Shown piece by piece: positions 11,220 through 35,214 of a stretch of 64,000 nt of DNA (the first letter of the stretch is position 1; every line of letters starts with the position of its first letter). The DNA lies in assembly GCF_012726265.1 (NCBI RefSeq), contig NZ_JAASAG010000011.1, positions 1-64,000 of the forward strand, read 5' to 3'. Source of the stretch: Streptomyces sp. HNM0575. GTDB taxonomy: Bacteria > Actinomycetota > Actinomycetes > Streptomycetales > Streptomycetaceae. A program made the position numbers and the translations under genes. The notes beneath the pieces were generated by a model that had not been told where the DNA came from, did not search any database, and saw nothing but the letters and a program-made list of their open reading frames with translations.

Positions 11220-11579
11220 GTGATTCCCGGAGAGATCGTCCACGGCGACGGCCCGGTGCGGCTCAACGAGGGCGCCGACGTCATCACGCTCACCGTGCTC
11301 AACTCCGCCGACCGGCCCGTGCAGGTCGGTTCCCACTACCACTTCGCGGAGGCCAACCCGGGGCTCGGCTTCGACCGGGCCGCCGCTCGCGGCAGACGCC
11401 TCGCCGTCGCCGCGGGCACGGCCGTACGGTTCGAGCCGGGCATCCCCGTCGAGGTCGCGCTCGTACCGCTCGGCGGCAGGCGCGTGGTCGCCGGGCTGCG
11501 CGGAGAGACGGGCGGACCGCTCGACGGCGGCGAGGTCGCCCCGGAAGGCCCGGAAGGCGGTGCCTCCGATGACCGATGA
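11220..11579 (+). CDS. ureB: Urease subunit beta
   Basis: A 119-residue UreB. The GTG at 11220, 9 bases after GGAAGGAG, gives the family start [20 protein letters not shown]. The conserved [18 protein letters not shown] and [11 protein letters not shown] segments are present. Length is typical (about 100-130). The C-terminal 20 residues are a variable Gly/Glu-rich tail. Its stop lies 11 bases inside ureC, so translation of the two is coupled. Structural subunit that holds the trimeric urease assembly together with UreA and UreC. Confidence 0.96.
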
Positions 11580-13302
11580 CAGCGGAGTGCTCTCCCGTGC
11601 CGTCTACGCCGACCTGTTCGGCCCGACCACCGGCGACAGGGTGCGGCTCGCCGACACCGGCCTGCTCGTCGAGGTCGAGGAGGACCGCTGCGGAGGTCCC
11701 GGACGTGCGGGAGACGAGGCCGTCTTCGGCGGCGGCAAGGTCATCCGCGAGTCCATGGGCCAGGCGCGCACGACACGAGCGGAGGGTGCGCCCGACACCG
11801 TCGTCACCGGTGCCCTGGTGCTCGACCACTGGGGCGTGGTCAAGGCGGACATCGGCATCCGCGACGGGCGGATCACCGCCCTCGGCAAGGCCGGGAACCC
11901 GGACACGATGGACGGCGTGCACCCGGATCTCGTCATCGGGCCCGAGACCGAGATCATCGCCGGCAACGGCCGGATCCTCACCGCGGGCGGCGTCGACACC
12001 CACGTCCACTTCGTGTGTCCGCAGCTCATCGACGAAGCGCTGGCCTCCGGCGTCACGACACTGGTCGGGGGCGGTACGGGACCGGCGGAGGGCAGCAAGG
12101 CGACCACGATCACGCCGGGGCCCTGGCACCTGGCCCGTACCCTCGCCGCCATGGACGACATGCCCGTGAACGTGGGGCTGCTCGGCAAGGGGAACACCGT
12201 CTCGCGGGAGGCGTTCCGCAGCCAACTGCGCGGCGGCGCCGTGGGATTCAAGATCCACGAGGACTGGGGGGCGACGCCCGCGGCCATCGACGCGTGCCTC
12301 GCGGCCTGTGAGGAGACCGGCGCCCAGCTCGCCATCCACACGGACACGCTCAACGAAGCGGGCTTCGTCGGGGACACCCTGGCCGCGATCGCGGGGCGGG
12401 GCATCCACGCGTACCACACCGAGGGGGCGGGAGGGGGCCACGCACCCGACATCATCACCGTCGTCGGCCACCCCAACGTGCTGCCCTCCTCGACCAACCC
12501 CACCCGCCCGCACACCGTCAACACCGTCGACGAACACCTCGACATGCTGATGGTCTGCCACCACCTCAACCCGGCCGTTCCCGAGGACCTCGCCTTCGCC
12601 GAGTCCCGCATCAGGCCGTCCACCATCGCCGCCGAGGACGTCCTGCACGACATGGGCGCCATCTCGATCATCTCCTCCGACTCCCAGGCCATGGGCCGCA
12701 TCGGGGAAGTGGTGCTGCGCACCTGGCAGACCGCGCACGTGATGAAGCAGCGCCGCGGCTCCCTGCCGGGGGACGGCCGCGCCGACAACGTCCGCGCCCG
12801 CCGCTACGTCGCCAAGTACACCGTCAACCCGGCCGCCGCCCAGGGACTGGACGCGGAGATCGGCTCCGTCGAACCGGGCAAACTCGCCGACCTGGTGCTG
12901 TGGGATCCCGCCTTCTTCGGGGTGAAGCCCCAACTCGTCCTGAAGGGCGGCCAGATCGCGTACGCGCAGATGGGCGACGCCAACGCGTCCATCCCCACGC
13001 CCCAACCCGTGTTGCCCCGGCCGATGTTCGGGGCCACGGGGCGCGCTCCGGCGGCCAACTCCCTCAACTTCGTCAACGCGGCCGCACTTGAGGACGGACT
13101 GCCCGAACGGCTCGGACTCGGCAAGCAGTTCGCCGCCGCCCGCGACACCCGCGCCGTCACCAAGGCGGACATGCACGGCAACGACGCGCTGCCGGACGTC
13201 GCCGTCGACGCGGACACCTTCACCGTCACCATCGACGGCGAACCTGTCGACCCTGCTCCGGCCACCGAACTGCCCATGTCGCAGCGGTACTTCCTCTTCT
13301 GA
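11569..13302 (+). CDS. ureC: Urease subunit alpha (catalytic)
   Basis: A 577-residue catalytic subunit of the amidohydrolase superfamily. Visible active-site parts: the nickel-binding HVHF motif, the lysine (K228) in GFKIHEDWG that is carbamylated to bridge the two nickels, [19 protein letters not shown], and the flap MVCHHLN with C330-H331-H332. The C-terminus MSQRYFLF is the standard UreC ending. ATG 11569 was preferred over the GTG at 11560 because GGAAGG at 11552-11557 is better spaced to it. It overlaps ureB by 11 bases and its TGA shares a base with the ureF ATG. Confidence 0.97.
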
Positions 13303-15901: not shown

Positions 15902-17146
15902 TCACAGCAGTCCGTGCCGGGGTGGCCGCGTGCCGTTGAGTACGTGCCGGCCCAGGTGCTGGATCTTCCAGCGGGCCGGGTCGTGGAGGGTGTGGGTGCG
16001 GGCGTCGCGCCAGTGGCGGTGGAGGTTGAGCCCGTCCAGGGCGGAGCGGGTGCCCGCCACCTCGAAGAGGGCGCTGCCCGCTTCCACCGCCGCCTCGCCC
16101 GCGCGTACCTTCGCCGCCGCCACGGCCAGCGACGCCTCGGCTGCGCTGTCGTCGGTGAGTTCGGCGTCCGCGGCGTCCACGGTGCGTGCCGCGACGTCGA
16201 GAAGGGCCTCCGCGGCCCGCACCTGGAGGGAGAGTTCGCCGAAGCGCTGGATGAGCAGCGGGTCCTCGGCGGCCGTGGCGTGGCCGCTCTCGAACCACGG
16301 GCGGCTCTTGGTGCGTACGAACTCCGCCGCCTCGGCCAGCGCGCCGGCCGCGATCCCGGCGTCGATTGCGGCGTGCAGCAACTGTGCGACGGCGCCGTGC
16401 AGTTGAGGGCCCTCGAAGGTCAGGTGGTGGGGCACGACACGGTCCGCGGGCACGTGGACGTGGTCCAGACGGACCGTGCCGCTGGCCGTGGTGCGCTGGC
16501 CCATGCCGTCCCAGTCGTCCTCGACGGTGACGCCCGGTGCGTCCCGCGGTACGTACGCGACGTGGAGCGCGCCGTCCGCGTGGGCGGCGCGGGCGAGCAC
16601 GGGGATCCAGTCGGCGAAGAGTGCGCCGGTCGAGTAGTGCTTCACGCCGGTGAGTACGAAGCCGCCGTTGCCTTCCCCGCTGCTGGCGTCCCCGCTGCCG
16701 CCGTCGGCTTCAAGGGGCTCGGCCGGTTCGAGGCGGGTGCGGAAGTCCTGGACGTGCCTGGTGCCGCGCTCCGACTGCGCGTTGCCGAACCGGCGCCCTG
16801 CCAGCACCTCCGCGAAGAAGAACCGCTGCTGCGCCGGACTCCCCTGCCGGCGCAGCACGTTGACGTAGACGAAATGGCTCTGCGGGATCTGCGCCAGGCT
16901 GGCGTCGCCGGTGGCAAGCAGCCGGAAGACCTCCGCCAGCGTCCGTACCGGGACGTCCGCTCCGCCGTGCTCGGCGGGCACCGTGATGCCCAGCAGACCG
17001 CCGGCGGAGAGCCGCTCCAGCTCCTCGCGCGGGAGCAGCCGCTCCGCGTCGCGCTTCGCGGCGTTCGCACGGAAGACGTCCGCCAACTCGGCGGCGGCAG
17101 CGAGCGCTTCCGCACTGCCCGAGATGACGTGTGCGGGGGCGCTCAC
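15902..17146 (-). CDS. sfnB: SfnB-type flavin-dependent sulfur-acquisition oxidoreductase
   Basis: A 414-residue protein of the acyl-CoA-dehydrogenase fold, in the SfnB/DszC monooxygenase branch. N-terminal helical domain: ERLSAGGLLGITVPAEHGGA and DASLAQIPQSHFVYVNVLRR. Middle beta domain: FGNAQSERGTRHVQ, LTGVKHYSTGALFADWIPVL. C-terminal helices: DARTHTLHDPARWKIQHLG. SfnB-like enzymes use reduced flavin and oxygen in use of organosulfur compounds. The GTG at 17146 overlaps the stop of the upstream FMN reductase, which would supply reduced flavin. Last gene of the sfnG operon. The exact substrate is unknown. Confidence 0.85.
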   Translation of the reverse strand: MSAPAHVISGSAEALAAAAELADVFRANAAKRDAERLLPREELERLSAGGLLGITVPAEHGGADVPVRTLAEVFRLLATGDASLAQIPQSHFVYVNVLRRQGSPAQQRFFFAEVLAGRRFGNAQSERGTRHVQDFRTRLEPAEPLEADGGSGDASSGEGNGGFVLTGVKHYSTGALFADWIPVLARAAHADGALHVAYVPRDAPGVTVEDDWDGMGQRTTASGTVRLDHVHVPADRVVPHHLTFEGPQLHGAVAQLLHAAIDAGIAAGALAEAAEFVRTKSRPWFESGHATAAEDPLLIQRFGELSLQVRAAEALLDVAARTVDAADAELTDDSAAEASLAVAAAKVRAGEAAVEAGSALFEVAGTRSALDGLNLHRHWRDARTHTLHDPARWKIQHLGRHVLNGTRPPRHGLL

Positions 17147-17697
17147 GCCGCTGCCGCCCTCGGCCTGCCGTCCTTCAGCGCGGCCGAGAACTGGGCGAGG
17201 ACCACGTCCAGGGCCTCCTGCGTGGCCACGTCGACGGAGACCGCGTCGTCCTCCCGTATCGCGATGTCCTTGTCGAGCACGAACCATCCCTGGACGATGT
17301 GCGCCGCGCCCATGGAGGCGAGCACGGGCCGCAGCGCGTAGTCGATGGCCAGCACATGCGCGACCGTGCCCCCGGTGGCCAGCGGCAGCACGGTCTTGCC
17401 GGTCAGCACGGCCTGCGGGAGCAGATCCAGCAGCGACTTCAGAAGCCCCGAGTAGGCGGCCTTGTAGACGGGTGTGCCGACGACGATGCCGTCGGCCTGC
17501 TCGAACAGCCTCCTGGCCTCGACGATCGCCGGATGCCCGAAGTCGGCCCGTAGCAGGGCCTCGGCCGGCAGCGACCGTACGTCCAGCGGGACCACGTCGT
17601 GCCCTTCGGCGGCGAGCGTGCCGTCGAGATGGCGCAGCAGCCGGGCCGTGCGGGAGACGGGGGAGGGACTTCCCGATACGGAGAGGATCGTGGCCAT
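17143..17697 (-). CDS. NADPH-dependent FMN reductase (SsuE/MsuE type)
   Basis: A 184-residue flavodoxin-fold reductase: ILSVSGSPSPVSRTARLL forms the FMN phosphate loop, and ADGIVVGTPVYKAAYSGLLK and LLPQAVLTGKTVLPLATGGT are the SsuE/MsuE signature regions. It reduces free FMN with NAD(P)H and hands it to flavin-dependent monooxygenases. Its neighbours on both sides (SfnG and SfnB) need exactly this cofactor. ATG 17697 follows GAGGTG with a 7-base gap. Confidence 0.9.
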   Translation of the reverse strand: MATILSVSGSPSPVSRTARLLRHLDGTLAAEGHDVVPLDVRSLPAEALLRADFGHPAIVEARRLFEQADGIVVGTPVYKAAYSGLLKSLLDLLPQAVLTGKTVLPLATGGTVAHVLAIDYALRPVLASMGAAHIVQGWFVLDKDIAIREDDAVSVDVATQEALDVVLAQFSAALKDGRPRAAAA

Positions 17698-17821: not shown

Positions 17822-18985
17822 TCAGGCGCGCACCGCGGCGGCGTCCGCCCCGAAGTCCGCCCCGTCCTGGGGCAGTTCGGCCTCCAGCTCGCGCACCAGC
17901 GGCAGTACGCGCCTGCCGAAGTACTCGACATCCTCCAGGTAGTGCAGGAAGCCGAGGAGGAAGAGGTCGACGCCGAGACGCTTGTAGGCGACGATCCGCT
18001 CCGCGATCTGCTCGGGCGTCCCGATCAGTCCCGTGCGGAACCCGTCGTTGTACTGGATCAGGTCCTCGAACGAGGAGTCCTGCCACATCCCCTTGCCGTC
18101 GGACGCCGACGCGCCGGCCTGCTGGACGGCGGACTCGAAGCCGCGTACCGCCTCGGTGTCCGCCTTGGCGACGATCTCCCGCAGCACTTCGCGGGCCTCG
18201 GCCTCGGTGTCGCGGGCGATCAGGAAGCCGTTGAGACCGAAGCGCGGTGCGGTGCGCCCGGCCGCGGCGGCGGACGCCCGTACGTCCTGGATCTGCTCGG
18301 TGACGCCGTCGAAGTCCTTGCCGTTGCTGAAGTACCAGTCGGAGACGCGGCCGGCCATCTGCCGTGCGGCGGTGGAGTTGCCGCCCTGGAAGATCTCCGG
18401 ATGCGGGCGCTCGACGCTGTTGAGCGGCTTCGGCTTCAGGGAGAAGTCCCTGATCCGGTAGAAGTCGCCGGCCACTTCGGCGTGGTCCTCGGTCCAGATG
18501 GTGCGCAGCGTCCGGATGAACTCCTCCGAGCGGCGGTAGCGCTCGTCGTGCTCCAGCCAGTGCTCACCGAGTGCCGTGAACTCGCCCTTGAACCATCCGC
18601 TGACGACGTTCACGGCGAACCGGCCGCCGGACAACTGGTCGGCGGTGGCGCCCAGTTTGGCCAGCACCCCGGGGTGCCACAGCCCGGGGTGCACGGCGGC
18701 GATGACCTTGAGCCGCTCGGTGGCGAGCAGGAGGGCGAGGCTGAAGCTCGTCGACTCGTGCTGGTACTCCGCGCCGTAGCTGGCCATGTAGCGGACCTGG
18801 CTCAGCGCGTAGTCGAAGCCGTTGTTCTCGGCTAGGACGGCCAGTTCGCGGTTGTAGTCGTAACCCCAGTCGGTGCGCTGCTCGACCTTGCTGGTGACCA
18901 GGCCGCCGCTGACGTTGGGCACCCAGTACGCGAAGCGAGCGGGCTCGGAGACGGAAGAGACGGAAGAGGCGGAGGGGACGGACAT
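17822..18985 (-). CDS. sfnG: Dimethylsulfone monooxygenase SfnG
   Basis: A 387-residue bacterial-luciferase-like (LLM) monooxygenase closely resembling SfnG: FAYWVPNVSGGLVTSKVEQR at the start, DWGYDYNRELAVLAE, HPGVLAKLGATADQLSGGRF, VNVVSGWFKGEFTALGEHWL, and IFQGGNSTAARQMAGRVSDW. SfnG uses FMNH2 and oxygen to split dimethylsulfone to methanesulfinate, part of sulfur scavenging. It heads the operon sfnG-FMN reductase-sfnB, with about 240 bases of leader that include a cysteine-type leader peptide (19229-19318), so the operon is expected to be induced when cysteine is short. Confidence 0.92.
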   Translation of the reverse strand: MSVPSASSVSSVSEPARFAYWVPNVSGGLVTSKVEQRTDWGYDYNRELAVLAENNGFDYALSQVRYMASYGAEYQHESTSFSLALLLATERLKVIAAVHPGLWHPGVLAKLGATADQLSGGRFAVNVVSGWFKGEFTALGEHWLEHDERYRRSEEFIRTLRTIWTEDHAEVAGDFYRIRDFSLKPKPLNSVERPHPEIFQGGNSTAARQMAGRVSDWYFSNGKDFDGVTEQIQDVRASAAAAGRTAPRFGLNGFLIARDTEAEAREVLREIVAKADTEAVRGFESAVQQAGASASDGKGMWQDSSFEDLIQYNDGFRTGLIGTPEQIAERIVAYKRLGVDLFLLGFLHYLEDVEYFGRRVLPLVRELEAELPQDGADFGADAAAVRA

Positions 18986-19228
18986 GAATTACTCCCTGGG
19001 AAGCAGAGGGCGTTGCGCAGAGGAATCAAGAAAAGGGGTCCACGGCCCGCGGTAATGACCGCGAGGGGCAAGGGAATTGATTCCGCTGATATTTCGCAGG
19101 CCTGCAATGCGCCGTTCATGAAATGAGGCGCCGGGCCGTGACGGCGTTCGTGCAGGCGCGTTCATGGATGGGTGACGGGCCCGCCCTTAAAGGGCCGGCA
19201 GGCGGCTTCAGTCAGCCTTCAACGCAGG

Positions 19229-19318
19229 TCACACACAGGGAGCATGACGACATGAAGCGCTGAAGACACGCGCCAGATCGACGTGGCGCCGGCGCGTGAG
19301 TCCGTACGACTTCATCAT
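19229..19318 (-). CDS. Cysteine-responsive leader peptide upstream of sfnG
   Basis: A 29-codon minus-strand ORF encoding MMKSYGLTRRRHVDLARV followed by FSASCRHAPCV and TGA. It matches the actinobacterial sulfur-gene leader family, whose core is a basic RRRHVDL-RV segment followed by one or more cysteines near the stop. These uORFs are known to couple ribosome stalling at Cys codons to expression of downstream sulfur genes. It lies about 240 bases before sfnG. Two starts (19318 and 19315) are possible. It is too short for ordinary gene calling but its motif, strand and place all agree. Confidence 0.8.
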   Translation of the reverse strand: MMKSYGLTRRRHVDLARVFSASCRHAPCV

Positions 19319-19520
19319 GCCGCCGATCAAAGCAGGTGCCCGCGCGCAGCGTCAACAGCATCAAGGAATACCCGGAGGGGCGGCCGCAGCCCGTCCTCGG
19401 TGTTCTCCGCCCGAATCTTCCCGTGTCGTCGTCCGAAGGCCGTTCAGGGATTCTCTCCAGAGCGCCGGCGGGGAATCGGGCGACTCCACGAAGTTGCAAT
19501 ACGCCCGCAACACAATGCTG

Positions 19521-19549
19521 TTGACCGGGACGCCCGGTACGCGCAGCAT
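19521..19549 (+). promoter_or_regulatory. Candidate promoter for the leader-TauD operon
   Basis: TTGACC (19521-19526), a 17-base spacer and CAGCAT (19544-19549) resemble a housekeeping sigma promoter and would start transcription near 19556, about 50 bases before the plus-strand leader ORF. The match is moderate and was made by eye. Confidence 0.35.
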
Positions 19550-19608
19550 CGACCGTGAGGAACGCTCCACGATCCGGCGGAGCCGTCCACGGGACCGAGG
19601 GGGTCGCG

Positions 19609-19731
19609 ATGCAGTGCCGCGAGCGGTCGCAGGCATACGACGCCGCCCTCGGCCGGATCCGCGACCCGCGCCTGACCGTGCGCCGCCACATCGATCTGCA
19701 CCGGGTCTCCAGCGCCGTCTGTCACGCCTGA
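19609..19731 (+). CDS. Cysteine-responsive leader peptide upstream of the TauD operon
   Basis: A 40-codon ORF whose C-terminal half is DPRLTVRRHIDLHRVSS followed by AVCHA and TGA, the same RRH-DL-RV plus near-terminal cysteine pattern as the minus-strand leader at 19229-19318 and as annotated streptomycete 'putative leader peptides'. The ATG at 19609 may be too early, since most family members are about 20-30 residues long, but the family core and stop are clear. It ends 153 bases before the dioxygenase start, leaving room for an attenuator or anti-Shine-Dalgarno structure. Confidence 0.8.
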   Translation: MQCRERSQAYDAALGRIRDPRLTVRRHIDLHRVSSAVCHA

Positions 19732-19884
19732 CCGCTTCCGGCTGCCGGCAGACCGTGCGCGGCCCGCGCCTCCCGCGCTCGTCCCGTTGCCCGTTCGTCG
19801 CTCCGGAACTCCGCCGTCCCGCTTTCCCCGCCGCAGGTACGGCCGCGACGCCGTACGCACGGCCACGACACATGGAGACCACCC

Positions 19885-20856
19885 GTGTCCGTTACCGCCG
19901 AGAACACGAACACGCTCACCGTCCGCCCCGTCGCGGGCCACATCGGCGCCGACATCTCAGGCGTCGACCTTTCCCAGCCGCTCCAGCCCGAGGAGATCGC
20001 CCGGATACGCGCGGCCCTGCTGCGCTGGAAGGTCGTCTTCTTCCGCGGTCAGCAGCTCGACCATGCCTCGCAGATCGCGTTCGCCCGCGGCTTCGGCGAG
20101 CTGACCTACGCGCACCCGCACGACGCCACTCCGCCCGAGGGCTACCCGGAGATCTTCACCATCGACCCGGAGCGCTTCGAGCGGCGCTACACCGACGGCC
20201 TCCAGCAGCAGCACAACAGGCGCAAGTACAGCTACTTCGGCGGGTGGCACACCGACGTCACCCCCGCCGTCAATCCGCCCGCGGGATCGATCCTGCGCGC
20301 CGAGACCGTCCCCGAGCACGGCGGCGACACGACCTGGACCAACACCGTCGCCGCGTACGAGGGGCTGTCGGCCCCCGTCCGCGCCTTCGTCGACGGGCTG
20401 CGCGCCGAACACCGTTACGGCGCCGACCAGGCGCCCGTGGGCGAGAGCGGCTATGCCCGCCGGGTCAACGACAACCTGCTGGTCGCCCATCACCCCGTGG
20501 TGCGCGTACACCCGGAGACGGGCGAGCGGGCGCTGTTCGTCTCCCCGGGCTTCACCAGCCACATCCTCGACGTGACCCCGCGCGAGAGCCGTGCGCTGCT
20601 CCAGCTGCTGTACGAGCAGCTGACCCGGCCCGAGTACACGGTGCGCTTCCGCTGGGAGCCGGGCAGCGTGGCCTTCTGGGACAACCGTGCCACCGCCCAC
20701 CTCGCCCCGAACGACCTGGACCATCTCGACGTGGAACGGCGGCTGCACCGCGTCACGTTGATCGGCGACGTCCCGGTGGGGCCCGACGGACGCGAGTCCG
20801 AGCTGATCTCCGGCAAGCCGTTCACGGCTGATCACCGGGTGGTGGTCAGCACCTGA
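19885..20856 (+). CDS. TauD/TfdA-family Fe(II)/2-oxoglutarate dioxygenase
   Basis: A 323-residue TauD-family enzyme. The iron-binding triad is visible as H-x-D in FGGWHTDVTP and a distal histidine in FWDNRATAHLAPND; the 2-oxoglutarate-binding arginine region is DVERRLHRVTLIGD. TauD-type enzymes hydroxylate sulfonates or sulfate esters so that sulfite or sulfate is released; the family also includes herbicide dioxygenases. The GTG start at 19885 follows GGAG. It leads a run of four flavin monooxygenases and sits behind a cysteine leader peptide, so a sulfur-releasing role is strongly suggested; sulfonate versus alkyl sulfate cannot be decided. Confidence 0.88.
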   Translation: MSVTAENTNTLTVRPVAGHIGADISGVDLSQPLQPEEIARIRAALLRWKVVFFRGQQLDHASQIAFARGFGELTYAHPHDATPPEGYPEIFTIDPERFERRYTDGLQQQHNRRKYSYFGGWHTDVTPAVNPPAGSILRAETVPEHGGDTTWTNTVAAYEGLSAPVRAFVDGLRAEHRYGADQAPVGESGYARRVNDNLLVAHHPVVRVHPETGERALFVSPGFTSHILDVTPRESRALLQLLYEQLTRPEYTVRFRWEPGSVAFWDNRATAHLAPNDLDHLDVERRLHRVTLIGDVPVGPDGRESELISGKPFTADHRVVVST

Positions 20857-21112: not shown

Positions 21113-22369
21113 GTGTCCCCACCGCCCACCTCACCGCTGCATCTCGCCGTCGCCCTCGACGGCACCGGCCGGCACCCCGCGTCCTGGCGGGAGGCGGCGG
21201 CCCGCCCACGCGACCTGTTCACGGCCGGGTACTGGGCGGATCTGGTCGCCGAGGCCGAGCACGGCCTGCTCGACTTCGTGACCTTCGAGGACGGCCTGGG
21301 CCTCCAGTCCTCGCACGTCCTGGAGCCGGACGACCGCACCGACCAGGTACGCGGCCGCCTGGACGCCGTACTCGTCGCCGCCCGCATCGCCCCGCTCAGC
21401 AGCCGGATCGGCCTGGTGCCGACGACGGTGGTCACCCACACCGAGCCGTTCCATGTCTCCAAGGCGATCGCCACTCTCGACTACGTCAGCTCCGGGCGGG
21501 CGGGCCTGCGGGTGCGGGTCAGCGCGCGCCCGGACGAGGCCGCCCACTTCGGCCGCCGCACGATCCCCCGCGTCGGCTCCTTCGACGGCCCCGCCGCACG
21601 GGAGTTGACGGCCGGCCTCTTCGACGAGGCCGCCGACTATGTGGAGGTCGTACGGCGCCTGTGGGACAGCTGGGAGGACGACGCGGAGATCCGGGACGTG
21701 GCCACCGGCCGCTTCATCGACCGGCACAAGCTCCACTACATCGACTTCGAGGGCGGGCACTTCAGCGTGAAGGGCCCGTCCATCACACCCCGCCCGCCAC
21801 AGGGCCAGCCGGTCGTCAGCGCCCTCGCCCACCGGACCGCCTCGTACCGGCTGCTGGCCCGGCAGACCGACGTCGGCTACGTCACGCCGCACCACGCCGC
21901 GCAGGCCGCGGCGATCGTCGCGGAGATACGCGCCGAGCAGGAGGCGGCGGGACGCGCCGGTGAACCCCTGCACGTCTTCGGCGACCTGGTGGTCTTCCTC
22001 GACGAGACCACCGGCGCGGCGGAGGCCCGGCGCGAGCGGCTCGACGGCCTCGCCGGCTCCCCGTACCGCGGCGACGCCCGCGTCTTCACCGGTACGGCCG
22101 CGCAACTCGCCGACCTGCTACAGGAGTTGCAGTCCGCGGGACTGAGCGGGTTCCGGCTCTGTCCGGCCGTACTCGGCCACGACCTTCCGGCGATCACCCG
22201 CGCCCTGGTGCCCGAACTCCAGCGGCGGGGCGCCTTCCGCCGCGCCTACGAGGCGGACACCCTGCGCGGACTGCTCGGCCTGTCCCGTCCCGCCAACCGC
22301 TACGCCGCCGGGCTCTCCGGGCAGGGGGGACCCTCCCCCGGGCTCTCCGAGCACGCGGGAAACCAGTGA
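21113..22369 (+). CDS. LLM-class flavin-dependent monooxygenase (organosulfur type) 1
   Basis: A 418-residue member of the luciferase-like superfamily, in the NtaA/SnaA/DszA-like branch: LHLAVALDGTGRHPASWREA, YWADLVAEAEHGLLDFVTFE, RIGLVPTTVVTHTEPFHVSK and GRAGLRVRVSARPDEAAHFG. The usual D-x-L-S-G-G-R motif is altered here to DYVSSGRAGLRV. Such enzymes need FMNH2 from a separate reductase. GTG 21113 is the first sensible start. In an operon-like run with three more LLM enzymes behind TauD; probably desulfurises an organic sulfur compound, substrate unknown. Confidence 0.8.
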   Translation: MSPPPTSPLHLAVALDGTGRHPASWREAAARPRDLFTAGYWADLVAEAEHGLLDFVTFEDGLGLQSSHVLEPDDRTDQVRGRLDAVLVAARIAPLSSRIGLVPTTVVTHTEPFHVSKAIATLDYVSSGRAGLRVRVSARPDEAAHFGRRTIPRVGSFDGPAARELTAGLFDEAADYVEVVRRLWDSWEDDAEIRDVATGRFIDRHKLHYIDFEGGHFSVKGPSITPRPPQGQPVVSALAHRTASYRLLARQTDVGYVTPHHAAQAAAIVAEIRAEQEAAGRAGEPLHVFGDLVVFLDETTGAAEARRERLDGLAGSPYRGDARVFTGTAAQLADLLQELQSAGLSGFRLCPAVLGHDLPAITRALVPELQRRGAFRRAYEADTLRGLLGLSRPANRYAAGLSGQGGPSPGLSEHAGNQ

Positions 22370-22397: not shown

Positions 22398-23831
22398 ATG
22401 AGCAAGCCGCTGAAGCAGATCCACCTCGCAGCCCACTTCCCGGGCGTCAACAACACCACCGTGTGGAGCGACCCCGAGGCCGGGAGCCACATCGAGTTCA
22501 GCTCCTTCGCGCACTTCGCACGGACCGCCGAGCGCGCCAAGTTCGACTTCCTCTTCCTCGCCGAAGGGCTGCGGCTGCGCGAACAGGGCGGAGAGATCTA
22601 CGACTTGGACGTGGTCGGCCGCCCCGACACCTTCACCGTGCTCGCCGCGCTCGCCGCCGTCACCGACCGCCTCGGCCTCACCGGCACCATCAACTCCACC
22701 TTCAACGAGCCCTATGAGGTCGCCCGCCAGTTCGCCAGCCTCGACCACCTCTCGGGCGGGCGCTCCGCGTGGAACGTCGTCACGTCCTGGGACGCCTTCA
22801 CCGGCGAGAACTTCCGCCGCGGCGGCTTCCTGCCGCAGGACGAACGCTACTCACGCGCAGAGGAGTTCCTCGCCACGGCCAACGAGCTCTTCGACTCCTG
22901 GAACGGCGACGAGATCGTCGCCGACCAGGCGGGCGGCACCTTCCTGCGCGACGCGAAGGCCGGGTCCTTCGTGCACACCGGACGGCACTTCGACATTCAC
23001 GGCAGGTTCGACGTACCGCGCCCGCCGCAGGGCCGCCCGGTGATCTTCCAGGCCGGGGACTCCGACGAAGGGCGCGAGTTCGCGGCCTCCGACGCCGACG
23101 CGATCTTCAGCCGCCATGCCTCCCTGAAGGAGGGGCGGGCCTTCTACGCGGACGTCAAGGGCCGCCTCGCCAAGTACGGCCGTACACCGGACCAGTTGCT
23201 GATCCTGCCCGCCGCGACCTTCGTGCTCGGCGACACCGACGCCGAGGCGCGGGAACTGGCGAGGGAGGTGCGTCGCAAGCAGGTCAGCGGTGCCACGGCC
23301 ATCAAGCACCTGGAGTTCGTCTGGAACCGCGACCTGTCCGCCTACGACCCGGACGGCCCGCTCCCCGACGTCGACCCGGACCCCGGAGAGCACCGCATCG
23401 CCCGCGGCCGGGCCCAAGTGCGCATGTACCGCGATCCGTTGGCGACCGCCCGCGAGTGGCGGGAGCGCGCCGCGGCCAACAACTGGTCCATCCGCGACCT
23501 CGTCATCGAGACCGGCAACCGGCAGAGCTTCATCGGTTCCCCGGCCACCGTCGCCAAGACCATCGACGACCTCGTGCAGGCCGACGCGGCCGACGGCTTC
23601 ATCCTCGTCCCGCACATCACCCCGGGGGGGCTCGACGTCTTCGCCGACAAGGTCGTACCGCTGCTACAGGAACGGGGCGTCCACCGCACGGAATACGAGG
23701 GCGAGACCCTGCGCGACCACCTCGGCCTCGCCCACCCCGGCTCTCCGCTCCGCACGGGCGGGCCGCCCCGTACGGAAGGTGCGGGCCACGGCCTGCGGAA
23801 CGCCGTACGGGGCGAGGAGGCCGCCTCGTGA
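22398..23831 (+). CDS. NtaA/SnaA/DszA-family flavin monooxygenase 2
   Basis: A 477-residue LLM monooxygenase with the full family pattern: LKQIHLAAHFPGVNNTTVWS, FAHFARTAERAKFDFLFLAE, INSTFNEPYEVARQFASLDH then LSGGRSAWNVVTSWD, and GRPVIFQAGDSDEGREFAA. Family members cleave nitrilotriacetate, dibenzothiophene sulfone, methionine-related or other C-N/C-S bonds with FMNH2. The neighbourhood favours C-S cleavage. Its last 35 residues are a loose Gly/Pro/Arg tail. Its stop overlaps the GTG of the next gene (GTGA), so the pair is co-translated. Confidence 0.87.
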   Translation: MSKPLKQIHLAAHFPGVNNTTVWSDPEAGSHIEFSSFAHFARTAERAKFDFLFLAEGLRLREQGGEIYDLDVVGRPDTFTVLAALAAVTDRLGLTGTINSTFNEPYEVARQFASLDHLSGGRSAWNVVTSWDAFTGENFRRGGFLPQDERYSRAEEFLATANELFDSWNGDEIVADQAGGTFLRDAKAGSFVHTGRHFDIHGRFDVPRPPQGRPVIFQAGDSDEGREFAASDADAIFSRHASLKEGRAFYADVKGRLAKYGRTPDQLLILPAATFVLGDTDAEARELAREVRRKQVSGATAIKHLEFVWNRDLSAYDPDGPLPDVDPDPGEHRIARGRAQVRMYRDPLATAREWRERAAANNWSIRDLVIETGNRQSFIGSPATVAKTIDDLVQADAADGFILVPHITPGGLDVFADKVVPLLQERGVHRTEYEGETLRDHLGLAHPGSPLRTGGPPRTEGAGHGLRNAVRGEEAAS

Positions 23832-24919
23832 AGATCCTCGCCATCACGCTCATCGTGCACGCGCCGCACCCGGTGACCGGCGTGCGGAAGCCGACCGCCG
23901 AACGCTTCCGCGAGGTCCTCGACAACGCCCTGCTCGCCGAGGAGCTGGGCTTCGACGGGTTCGGCGTGGGGGAGCGGCACGAGCGGCCGTTCATCTCCTC
24001 CTCGCCGCCCGTCGTGCTCAGCCACATCGCGGCGCTGACGAAGCACATACGCCTGTTCACCGCCGTGACGACGCTCAGCCTGCTGGACCCCGTGCGGGCC
24101 TACGAGGACTACGCGACACTGGACCATCTCTCCGGCGGGCGCCTCGAATTGATCATCGGCAAGGGCAACGGCGCCGCGCAGCGCGAGCTGTTCCACGTCA
24201 CGCCGGAGGACCAGTGGGAGCGCAACGCCGAGAGCTACGAGGTGTTCCGGCGGATCTGGCGGCAGGACAAGGTCACCGCCAGGACGCGCTTCCGCCCGGA
24301 GCTGACGGACGCCGAGGTGTGGCCCAGGCCGCTGCAACAGCCGGTCCGCGTCTGGCACGGCAGCGCGACCAGCAAGGAGTCGGTCGACCTCGCGGCCCGC
24401 TACGGCGACCCGCTGTTCTCCGCGAACGTCACCAACCCCATAGAGCCGTATGCCGAGTTGATCCGCTACTACCGCGAGCGCTGGGAGCACCACGGTCACG
24501 ACCCGGCCGCCATCGCCGTCGGGGCGGGAACGGCAGGCCTCTACGCGGCCCGTACGTCGCAGGAGGCGATCGCCGCGTACCGGCCGGTGTTCGAGGGCAA
24601 TCTGGCGTTCCAGAGGCAGCTGGGCCTGGAGCCGGTCTTCCCGACTCTTGAGGACTTCGTCGAGCGCAGCTCGGCTCTGATCGGCAGCCCGCAGCAGATC
24701 GTCGACAAGGTGCGCCGCTACCACGAGCAGTTCGGTCACACGGTGCTGCATGTGCACGCGGACGCAAGCGGACTGACGGAGACGCAGCACCGGAGTTCGC
24801 TGGAGCTCTTCCAGTCCGAGGTCGCCCCTGTGCTGCGCCGCGAGATCCCCGACCCGCCGTTCGCCTGGGCACCCGTGCTTCCGGCGGCACCCAACTCCGA
24901 GGAGCCCGCCCATGTCTGA
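23828..24919 (+). CDS. LLM-class flavin-dependent oxidoreductase 3
   Basis: A 363-residue luciferase-like protein: VKILAITLIVHAPHPVTGVR, LAEELGFDGFGVGERHERPF, LDPVRAYEDYATLDHLSGGR and IIGKGNGAAQRELFHVT, with a C-terminal IGSPQQIVDKVRRYHEQFGH. It resembles the alkanal or sulfonate monooxygenase-like groups rather than DszA. GTG 23828 is coupled to the previous stop. The last codons overlap the next gene by 8 bases. Likely another sulfur-scavenging monooxygenase; activity unproven. Confidence 0.83.
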   Translation: MKILAITLIVHAPHPVTGVRKPTAERFREVLDNALLAEELGFDGFGVGERHERPFISSSPPVVLSHIAALTKHIRLFTAVTTLSLLDPVRAYEDYATLDHLSGGRLELIIGKGNGAAQRELFHVTPEDQWERNAESYEVFRRIWRQDKVTARTRFRPELTDAEVWPRPLQQPVRVWHGSATSKESVDLAARYGDPLFSANVTNPIEPYAELIRYYRERWEHHGHDPAAIAVGAGTAGLYAARTSQEAIAAYRPVFEGNLAFQRQLGLEPVFPTLEDFVERSSALIGSPQQIVDKVRRYHEQFGHTVLHVHADASGLTETQHRSSLELFQSEVAPVLRREIPDPPFAWAPVLPAAPNSEEPAHV

Positions 24920-26060
24920 CGTCCGTCTCGGCGTCCTCGACCTCGTACCGATCCCGTCCGGCTCGACGGCGGCCGACGCCCTGCACAACTCGATCGATCT
25001 CGCACAGCAGGCGGAGCGCTTCGGGTACTCCCGCTACTGGTTCGCCGAGCACCACCTCAACCCCGGGGTGGCCGGCACGTCCCCCGCCGTGGTCCTCGCC
25101 CTGACCGCCTCCGCGACCTCCGCGATCCGGCTCGGCTCCGGGGCGGTGCAGCTGGGGCACCGTACGGCGCTCTCGACGGTCGAGGAGTTCGGTCTGGTCG
25201 ACGCGTTGCACCCGGGCCGCATCGACCTGGGGCTGGGCCGCTCGGGGGGCCGCCCGCCGGGAGGGTCCGCGGCGCCGCCCAAGACCACCCCGGAGGTCGT
25301 CGACGGGCGGGCCCCGAACGGCCTGCTCATCCCGCCGCGCTTCTCCTTCGAGCACCTTCTCGGCTCGCCCCGTGTCGCCTTGCAGCGCAAGCTGCTCCAG
25401 CTGCCCGGCGCCGAATCGCAGGACTACGCCGAGCAGATCGACGACATCCTCGCGCTGCTGGCGGGCGACTACCGCTCGCCTGAGGGCGTCGAGGCGCATG
25501 TCGTGCCGGGCGAGGGCGCCGACGTGCAGGTGTGGATCCTGGGCAGCAGCGGCGGCGAGAGCGCCGAGGCCGCGGGCGCACGCGGCCTGCCGTTCGCCGC
25601 GAACTACCACGTCAGCCCGGCCACGGTCCTGGAGGCGGTGGAGGGCTACCGCGCCTTCTTCCAGCCGTCCGGGTTCCTCGACAAGCCGTACGTCAGCGTC
25701 TCCGCGGACGTCGTCGTCGCCGAGGACGACGCGACGGCGCTTGAACTCGCCACCGGCTACGGCCCGTGGGTCCGCAGCATCCGCACCGCGGAGGGCGCCA
25801 TCCGCTTCCCGACGCCCGACGAGGCGCGGGCCCACGTGTGGAGCGACGCGGACCGCGCTCTCGTCCAGGACCGCCTCGACACGCAGTTCACGGGCTCGCC
25901 CGGCCACGTCGCCGATCAGCTGGAACAGCTCCAAGAGGCCACGGACGCCGACGAGTTGCTCATCACGACGATCACGCACGACCACCGGGACCGGGTCCGC
26001 TCTTACGAACTGCTCGCCGGGGAGTGGAGGCGCCGCGGACACTCCCTGCGGGCGGGCTGA
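24912..26060 (+). CDS. LLM-class flavin-dependent oxidoreductase 4 (MsnO8-like)
   Basis: A 382-residue luciferase-like protein: LGVLDLVPIPSGSTAADALH, FGYSRYWFAEHHLNPGVAGT, IRLGSGAVQLGHRTALSTVE and ALHPGRIDLGLGRSGGRP. This N-terminus (SVLDLVP-type, then YWFAEHH) is typical of the 'MsnO8 family' LLM enzymes found in many sulfur operons. ATG 24912 overlaps the preceding gene by 8 bases. It ends the five-gene organosulfur operon; no transporter or reductase is encoded on this side, so reduced flavin probably comes from the product of 17143-17697. Confidence 0.85.
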   Translation: MSDVRLGVLDLVPIPSGSTAADALHNSIDLAQQAERFGYSRYWFAEHHLNPGVAGTSPAVVLALTASATSAIRLGSGAVQLGHRTALSTVEEFGLVDALHPGRIDLGLGRSGGRPPGGSAAPPKTTPEVVDGRAPNGLLIPPRFSFEHLLGSPRVALQRKLLQLPGAESQDYAEQIDDILALLAGDYRSPEGVEAHVVPGEGADVQVWILGSSGGESAEAAGARGLPFAANYHVSPATVLEAVEGYRAFFQPSGFLDKPYVSVSADVVVAEDDATALELATGYGPWVRSIRTAEGAIRFPTPDEARAHVWSDADRALVQDRLDTQFTGSPGHVADQLEQLQEATDADELLITTITHDHRDRVRSYELLAGEWRRRGHSLRAG

Positions 26061-34981: not shown

Positions 34982-35034
34982 ACCCACAGGGCCTCCTGGG
35001 TCGTATGCCCCGTATCACCTCGACGGCCCTTACT

Positions 35035-35175
35035 ATGCTTCTCGGCGGATCCACAGGTCCGCCGACGCCAAGACGGCGATCAGGGAGGAAGCCCGGTGCG
35101 AATCCGGCGCGGTCCCGCCACTGTGAGCCCGGCCCCGACGGCCGGGCGAGCCAGGAACTCCCGCCGTCCGACACC
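35035..35175 (+). promoter_or_regulatory. Cobalamin riboswitch ahead of cobN
   Basis: The cobN leader holds GGAAGCCCGGTGCGAATCCG, GCGGTCCCGCCACTGTGA and the B12 box GAGCCAGGAACTCCCGCC (near 35149-35166), the core order of cobalamin riboswitches. The cobN ribosome site GAGGAAGG (35196-35203) follows within a GC-rich segment, so B12 probably blocks translation. The 5' P1 strand is not well conserved, so the left edge is approximate. Confidence 0.92.
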
Positions 35176-35214
35176 ACCCGGGGCGCGGATACCCCGAGGA
35201 AGGCCAGACGCCGC

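Follow-up and report, generated by a model that had tools for sequence, protein, structure and literature searches.

The 64,000-nucleotide stretch of DNA analysed here (the window) carries two operons of predicted desulfurisation genes arranged back to back, as the preliminary description had proposed. SfnG, a reductase and SfnB are encoded on the minus strand, and a TauD-like dioxygenase followed by four LLM enzymes on the plus strand:

15902 to 17107 (start approximate), minus strand: sfnB-type sulfur acquisition oxidoreductase (TIGR04022)
17143 to 17697, minus strand: NADPH-dependent FMN reductase, SsuE type (TIGR03567)
17822 to 18985, minus strand: sfnG, dimethylsulfone monooxygenase (TIGR04021, 624 bits)
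19885 to 20856, plus strand: TauD-like dioxygenase (PRK09553 taurine dioxygenase model, 246 bits, below its cut-off of 313)
21113 to 22369, plus strand: LLM monooxygenase, NtaA/DmoA-like (254 bits, cut-off 280)
22398 to 23831, plus strand: LLM monooxygenase, NtaA/DmoA family (TIGR03860, above cut-off)
23834 to 24919 (start approximate), plus strand: LLM monooxygenase, CE1758-like
24912 to 26060, plus strand: LLM oxidoreductase, MsnO8 family (TIGR03558)

Between sfnG and the tauD-like gene lie 900 nt, and within them two short ORFs, one towards each operon, both present where they had previously been placed. These ORFs and the elements around them are as follows:

19229 to 19318, minus strand (read 19318-19229): sfnG leader ORF, 29 aa, 25.3 bits with the model NF042934 (cut-off 27)
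19250 to 19252, minus strand: conserved Cys codon UGU (codon 23), proposed stall site of the sfnG leader
19235 to 19237, minus strand: second Cys codon UGU (PCV) of the sfnG leader, position not conserved
19350 to 19355, minus strand: TTGACG, -35-like element of the sfnG leader
19326 to 19331, minus strand: TTTGAT, promoter-like element of the sfnG leader, 7 nt to the ATG
19609 to 19731, plus strand: tauD leader ORF, 40 aa, 32.2 bits with NF042934, above the cut-off of 27
19720 to 19722, plus strand: conserved Cys codon UGU (codon 38), proposed stall site of the tauD leader
19521 to 19526, plus strand: TTGACC, -35-like element 5' of the tauD leader, by consensus only

The minus-strand peptide reads MMKSYGLTRRRHVDLARVFSASCRHAPCV, with the core LTRRRHVDLARVFSASC, and the plus-strand peptide reads MQCRERSQAYDAALGRIRDPRLTVRRHIDLHRVSSAVCHA, with the core LTVRRHIDLHRVSSAVC; common to both is L-x-x-R-x-[H/A]-[V/I/M]-D-L-x-R-x5-C. 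NF042934 (NCBIfam, cis_reg_atten, "putative leader peptide") is a known but little-studied family found 5' of sulfur genes. In a six-frame search of the organism's own genome with this model, the plus and minus leaders were recovered at E = 1.6e-6 and 2.4e-4 per whole genome, and two matches about 400 nt apart with such E-values are not due to chance, which bears out the core reported earlier for both strands. The window leaders share with the family its core, its length and its place 5' of sulfur genes, but the minus copy is 1.7 bits short of the cut-off; as the whole core is present in its sfnG relatives, we regard it as a divergent relative that the model itself does not certify. A Pfam search of the two leaders gave no match and a plasmid search nothing further on them. 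At gathering thresholds Rfam returned no known riboswitch at the leader site. Elsewhere in the window it placed two cobalamin riboswitches (RF00174; 8218-8402, minus strand, and 35029-35179, plus strand) and a 5_ureB_sRNA match (11742-12037, minus strand) antisense to the urease gene at 11560-13302, which may reflect coding conservation and not an RNA.

The preliminary description had given the minus leader two Cys codons, which is correct, and the plus leader just one, which is not, for a further Cys (TGC) stands at codon 3. A single Cys of each window leader sits at the conserved position of the family, and the PCV Cys of the minus leader has no fixed counterpart among other sfnG leaders, which often have CC or CxC directly after the conserved Cys. 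It is questionable to forecast from the number of Cys codons that the two leaders differ in sensitivity, given that the family as a whole requires just one Cys. Upstream of the sfnG leader, TTGACG and TTTGAT, with 7 nt from the latter to the ATG, suggest a leaderless mRNA as judged from promoter-like sequence; a TTGAC-like element was found in 46 of the 55 related sfnG leaders having an ATG.

Matches to NF042934 occur in all 61 genus genomes searched (61/61), with 2-13 per genome, and at class level at least one was found in 144 of 197 genomes; the organism's own genome has 10 at E up to 0.001, the window pair among them. We collected 118 Streptomyces leader loci, of which 117 had the core (L022, with no core, was dropped) and 87 were unique over their 51-nt cores; L140 was left out as it had no downstream gene, and three Streptomycetaceae leaders were kept out of the non-Streptomyces count. 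Since the leaders were drawn from best-first lists, weak family members are under-sampled. The 86 proteins encoded downstream of unique Streptomyces leaders included 23 PALP proteins (CysK/CBS-like), 17 luciferase-like monooxygenases, 15 cysteine dioxygenases, 13 sulfatases, 7 sulfite/nitrite reductases, 2 rhodanese-domain proteins and 1 TauD. Leaders before cysteine dioxygenase genes are odd, because this enzyme consumes cysteine; several of them (L010, L026, L117, L123 and similar ones) end in CCGTCCTGC, which is complementary to the SD CAGGACGG.

A comparative search for both ORFs upstream of homologues, as proposed in the preliminary description, showed the sfnG leader to be conserved and the tauD leader to be rare. 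The sfnG gene is present in 36 of 150 genus genomes, and a scored scan found a leader 5' of it in 30/30 fetched Streptomyces loci, with scores of 11-12; opposite-strand scores were at most 7, save two (12 and 11) that we ascribe to the facing leaders of the window itself. This score also accepts RLH-type and D-F leaders, and a simple regular expression reached 28/30 loci. In a named set, a leader was detected in 63/80 sfnG loci, including those of Nocardia, Saccharothrix and Actinacidiphila, and 17/80 fell below the score threshold, among them the near-misses L368 and L374, which also have TGT. Seven Actinomadura loci (L351, L355, L357, L359, L360, L362 and L367) were all sub-threshold, with no detectable leader, and their enzyme is 82-85% identical. 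We have not added up the named and unnamed counts, because the genomes may coincide. The tauD leader was found in 2/30 tauD-like loci, namely that of the window and that of L070, a relative at 90% identity whose leader is likewise 40 aa; identity is only 55-58% for the remaining 28, which are perhaps not orthologues. In L070, the ORF before the tauD leader (minus strand, 3957 to 2877) reads by eye like a cystathionine beta-synthase/cysteine synthase.

Relative to the core Asp (0), the conserved residues are Leu/Phe at -7, Arg at -4, His/Ala at -2, Val/Ile/Met at -1, Leu at 1, Arg at 3 and Cys at 9, with constant spacing among the 87 unique Streptomyces cores. The codon at the last of these positions is fixed. 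Among the leaders listed best-first, the conserved Cys is TGT in 187/188 unique leaders from 27 families, the sole exception having lost the Cys; by group, this amounts to 86/87 in Streptomyces, where the exception is a cysK-type leader of the organism's own genome with GGG, and 100/100 in 26 other families. Clustering at 80% identity left TGT in 55/56 representatives from 17 families. The named sfnG leaders had TGT at this position in 63/63 (their other Cys codons being TGC 39 and TGT 20), and all 11 own-genome matches with E up to 0.0025 comprised 10 TGT and one GGG. For comparison, TGT accounts for 46 of 374 Cys codons (12%; TGC 328) in 166 ORFs of these loci, for 12/95 of the other Cys codons inside Streptomyces leaders (13%; TGC 83) and for 35/169 of those inside leaders of other families (21%; TGC 134). 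At other invariant residues third positions drift: in the 56 representatives, the third base of the Arg -4 codon is C (21), G (13), A (12) or T (10), and the core Asp is GAC in 41 and GAT in 15. This free wobble elsewhere, together with the fixed TGT, implies that selection acts on the peptide in the core and on the codon at the Cys site. There is further synonymous bias in the Val-Ser-Ser of sfnG leaders, mostly GTC TCC AGY, and the base following the conserved TGT is a pyrimidine in 178/187 leaders vs. 193/244 for other Cys codons. The exceptional own-genome leader (L001/L099, G000:C1:120566-120619) lies 5' of a cysK-like gene; its core is intact and its frame open, but GGG (Gly) replaces the conserved UGU, and it may be an attenuator that has decayed or changed.

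A single tRNA-Cys gene turned up in a pattern search, its GCA anticodon being confirmed with ARAGORN; none with an ACA anticodon was seen with these patterns, which are not exhaustive. With this single tRNA-Cys(GCA), UGU would be decoded by G-U wobble. In E. coli, the choice of attenuator codons has been explained, in the excerpts of one study (PMC1183508), via competing isoacceptors. Such competition or selective charging would not explain the UGU here, a single tRNA-Cys having been found. The fixed UGU behind a constrained nascent peptide points to the decoding of this single codon as the sensor, and we infer that UGU is weakly decoded at a primed ribosome. We put forward tentatively, with somewhat more doubt than belief, that priming of the ribosome by the nascent peptide lets one wobble-read UGU suffice to sense cysteine, in place of the codon runs on which classical attenuators depend.

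It seems to us probable that both ORFs encode leader peptides acting in cis, each reporting the cysteine supply to its operon. Translation of the core would bring the ribosome to the single UGU, to be wobble-read by tRNA-Cys(GCA), at which point a distance of some 6-13 residues would separate R-x-H-V-D-L-x-R from the peptidyl-transferase centre and the nascent chain may slow the step. If Cys-tRNA is lowered, the ribosome would stall at the UGU; the footprint of a stalled ribosome runs from about 18 nt upstream to 11 nt downstream of the codon, and such a ribosome would shield nearby leader codons and turn the operon on, either by preventing the leader from pairing with the downstream SD or by blocking the loading of Rho on the C-rich UTR. 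When cysteine is plentiful, the leader would be completed and the genes for sulfone and sulfonate scavenging would stay low. Both operons should respond to the one signal.

Each window leader contains a stretch complementary to the SD of its own operon:

19236 to 19243, minus strand: GCTCCCTG, candidate anti-SD in the sfnG leader, complementary to the sfnG SD, including one wobble
18992 to 18998, minus strand: CAGGGAG, SD of sfnG
19704 to 19710, plus strand: GGTCTCC, candidate anti-SD in the tauD leader, complementary to the tauD SD
19874 to 19880, plus strand: GGAGACC, SD of tauD

The sfnG pairing was matched in 30/5000 dinucleotide shuffles and 216/5000 random windows, and the tauD pairing in 41/5000 and 50/5000, respectively, and such pairing in both loci is suggestive of SD sequestration. 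In full-length folds at the window, the SD pairings were not dominant, and the sfnG anti-SD, 9-16 nt past the conserved UGU, would be only partly covered by a ribosome stalled there. Across the collected loci, pairing at the 5% level was seen in 23/117 entries (with the window's two loci counted twice) and in 27/63 named sfnG loci, mostly of one clade; this test is weakened because downstream genes and starts were picked by heuristics and some are surely wrong. In one sfnG clade the Cys-codon region pairs with the SD across up to 10-11 nt, with CTCCTGTTGC facing the SD GCAACAGGAG, and covariation is mixed: a few of the changes are compensated (L051, L056), but several are not (L064, L343). As a general output, SD sequestration was set aside, the pairing being undetected in most loci. 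With respect to Rho, the (C-G)/(C+G) skew after the leader stop is 0.23 for tauD and 0.17 for sfnG (95th percentile of random windows), the C-rich, G-poor composition looked for in a Rho site. The median was 0.28 in 63 sfnG UTRs and 0.26 in 56 other UTRs of relatives vs. -0.04 upstream of 28 tauD-like genes and 0.06 in 28 intergenic sides of the window, its two leader UTRs included. Rho loading sites resemble such C-rich UTRs, and output through Rho is possible on compositional grounds. Rho was proposed for mycobacterial cys leaders in 2005, as excerpts of that paper indicate (PMC1262725).

An alternative that we hold to be unlikely is that RNA structure fixes the UGU and the peptide is secondary, either with the GUY of UGU-Y pairing to the GAY of the Asp codon or with the Cys-codon region acting as the anti-SD. 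Of 55 representatives, 91% do allow GAY and GUY to form their three pairs, and the sfnG clade described above and the GTC TCC AGY favoured in sfnG leaders also speak for this alternative. However, the pair next to GAY/GUY is found in 49% vs. 52% of shuffled sequences, without covariation, and there is thus no extension of the stem; moreover, no fixed downstream partner was found (best 22%), the position of the anti-SD shifts among loci and is mostly undetected, and the other wobble bases of the core are free. An RNA stem as the cause of the UGU was rejected on the shuffles, which show neither extension nor covariation. We also give little credence to a true arrest peptide that would sense a sulfur metabolite bound in the ribosome in place of responding to Cys-tRNA charging, in the manner of TnaC, which senses tryptophan. 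The strict core at a constant distance from the stall site would accord with such an arrest, but a sensing chain alone leaves the fixed synonymous codon unexplained, and it is Cys that is invariant at the site, with downstream genes that make or release sulfur for Cys. It is very improbable that the peptides are trans-acting small proteins, for which the conserved amino-acid core and an annotation as merely putative leaders might speak, given their location before sulfur operons, the 2-13 matches that each of 61 genomes contains and their variable ends, and given that a released peptide cannot account for a fixed synonymous codon.

Control via Cys codons, as the preliminary description had predicted, is supported by the family, the sulfur genes downstream, the conservation of the sfnG leader, the constrained core and the fixed UGU, and a Cys-codon-dependent leader-peptide attenuator is the best reading of both ORFs, with the regulation itself deduced from sequence. 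Against a cysteine sensor are the following: 1) only one Cys is obligatory, unlike the codon runs of classical attenuators; 2) the tauD leader is rare; and 3) one leader of the organism's own genome is Cys-less.

The idea of Cys attenuation is itself not new in kind. TnaC-type arrest peptides work with Rho, and the window leaders resemble them in having conserved residues some 6-13 behind the proposed stall and a C-rich UTR, but the signal proposed here is Cys-tRNA, and arrest and Rho action are hypothetical. Mycobacterial Cys-rich leaders show ribosome occupancy (excerpts of PMC4633059), and the attenuators of Canestrari et al. 2020 are reported to be cysteine-responsive by papers citing that work (excerpts of PMC9031893, PMC9094748 and PMC13236596). 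The window leaders belong to this broad kind. As far as the citing papers tell, the polycysteine leaderless ORFs Ms4527A and Ms5788A likewise put a Cys leader before sulfur genes; with their models the window leaders score 24.2/21.8 and 17/13.6 bits, below the 45-bit cut-offs. Ms4527A and Ms5788A have a run of Cys, whereas the window leaders have one conserved Cys and scattered others; a leaderless-type promoter spacing is suggested for the sfnG leader only, the tauD leader appearing to have its own SD. The Rhodobacterales cysS uORF (uORFC-8-2; excerpts of PMC8632094) is likewise a short upstream ORF containing Cys codons, but these are tandem, mostly UGC, and come with an intrinsic terminator, in contrast to the one conserved UGU here. 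Excerpts of the S. lividans reannotation name eight leader peptides, none of them called Cys-dependent. Literature listings and excerpts searched for an earlier description of the UGU rule, or for work on Cys leaders in Streptomyces, yielded none, and Canestrari et al. 2020 may contain such a mention; the string RRHVDL led to one unrelated hepatitis C paper. What our comparison of sequences adds to the known family is the fixed UGU at the conserved Cys, of which NF042934, as a protein-level model, carries no record.

If this reading is true, the locus would put the scavenging of dimethylsulfone and sulfonates under cysteine-sensing leaders on both of its arms. With its synonym frequent elsewhere in the same ORFs, a codon kept invariant next to a constrained nascent peptide would be a natural experiment on what makes a single hungry codon a sensitive sensor. 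Should the one-codon reading prove true, the spelling of a single codon has been held across at least 27 actinomycete families.
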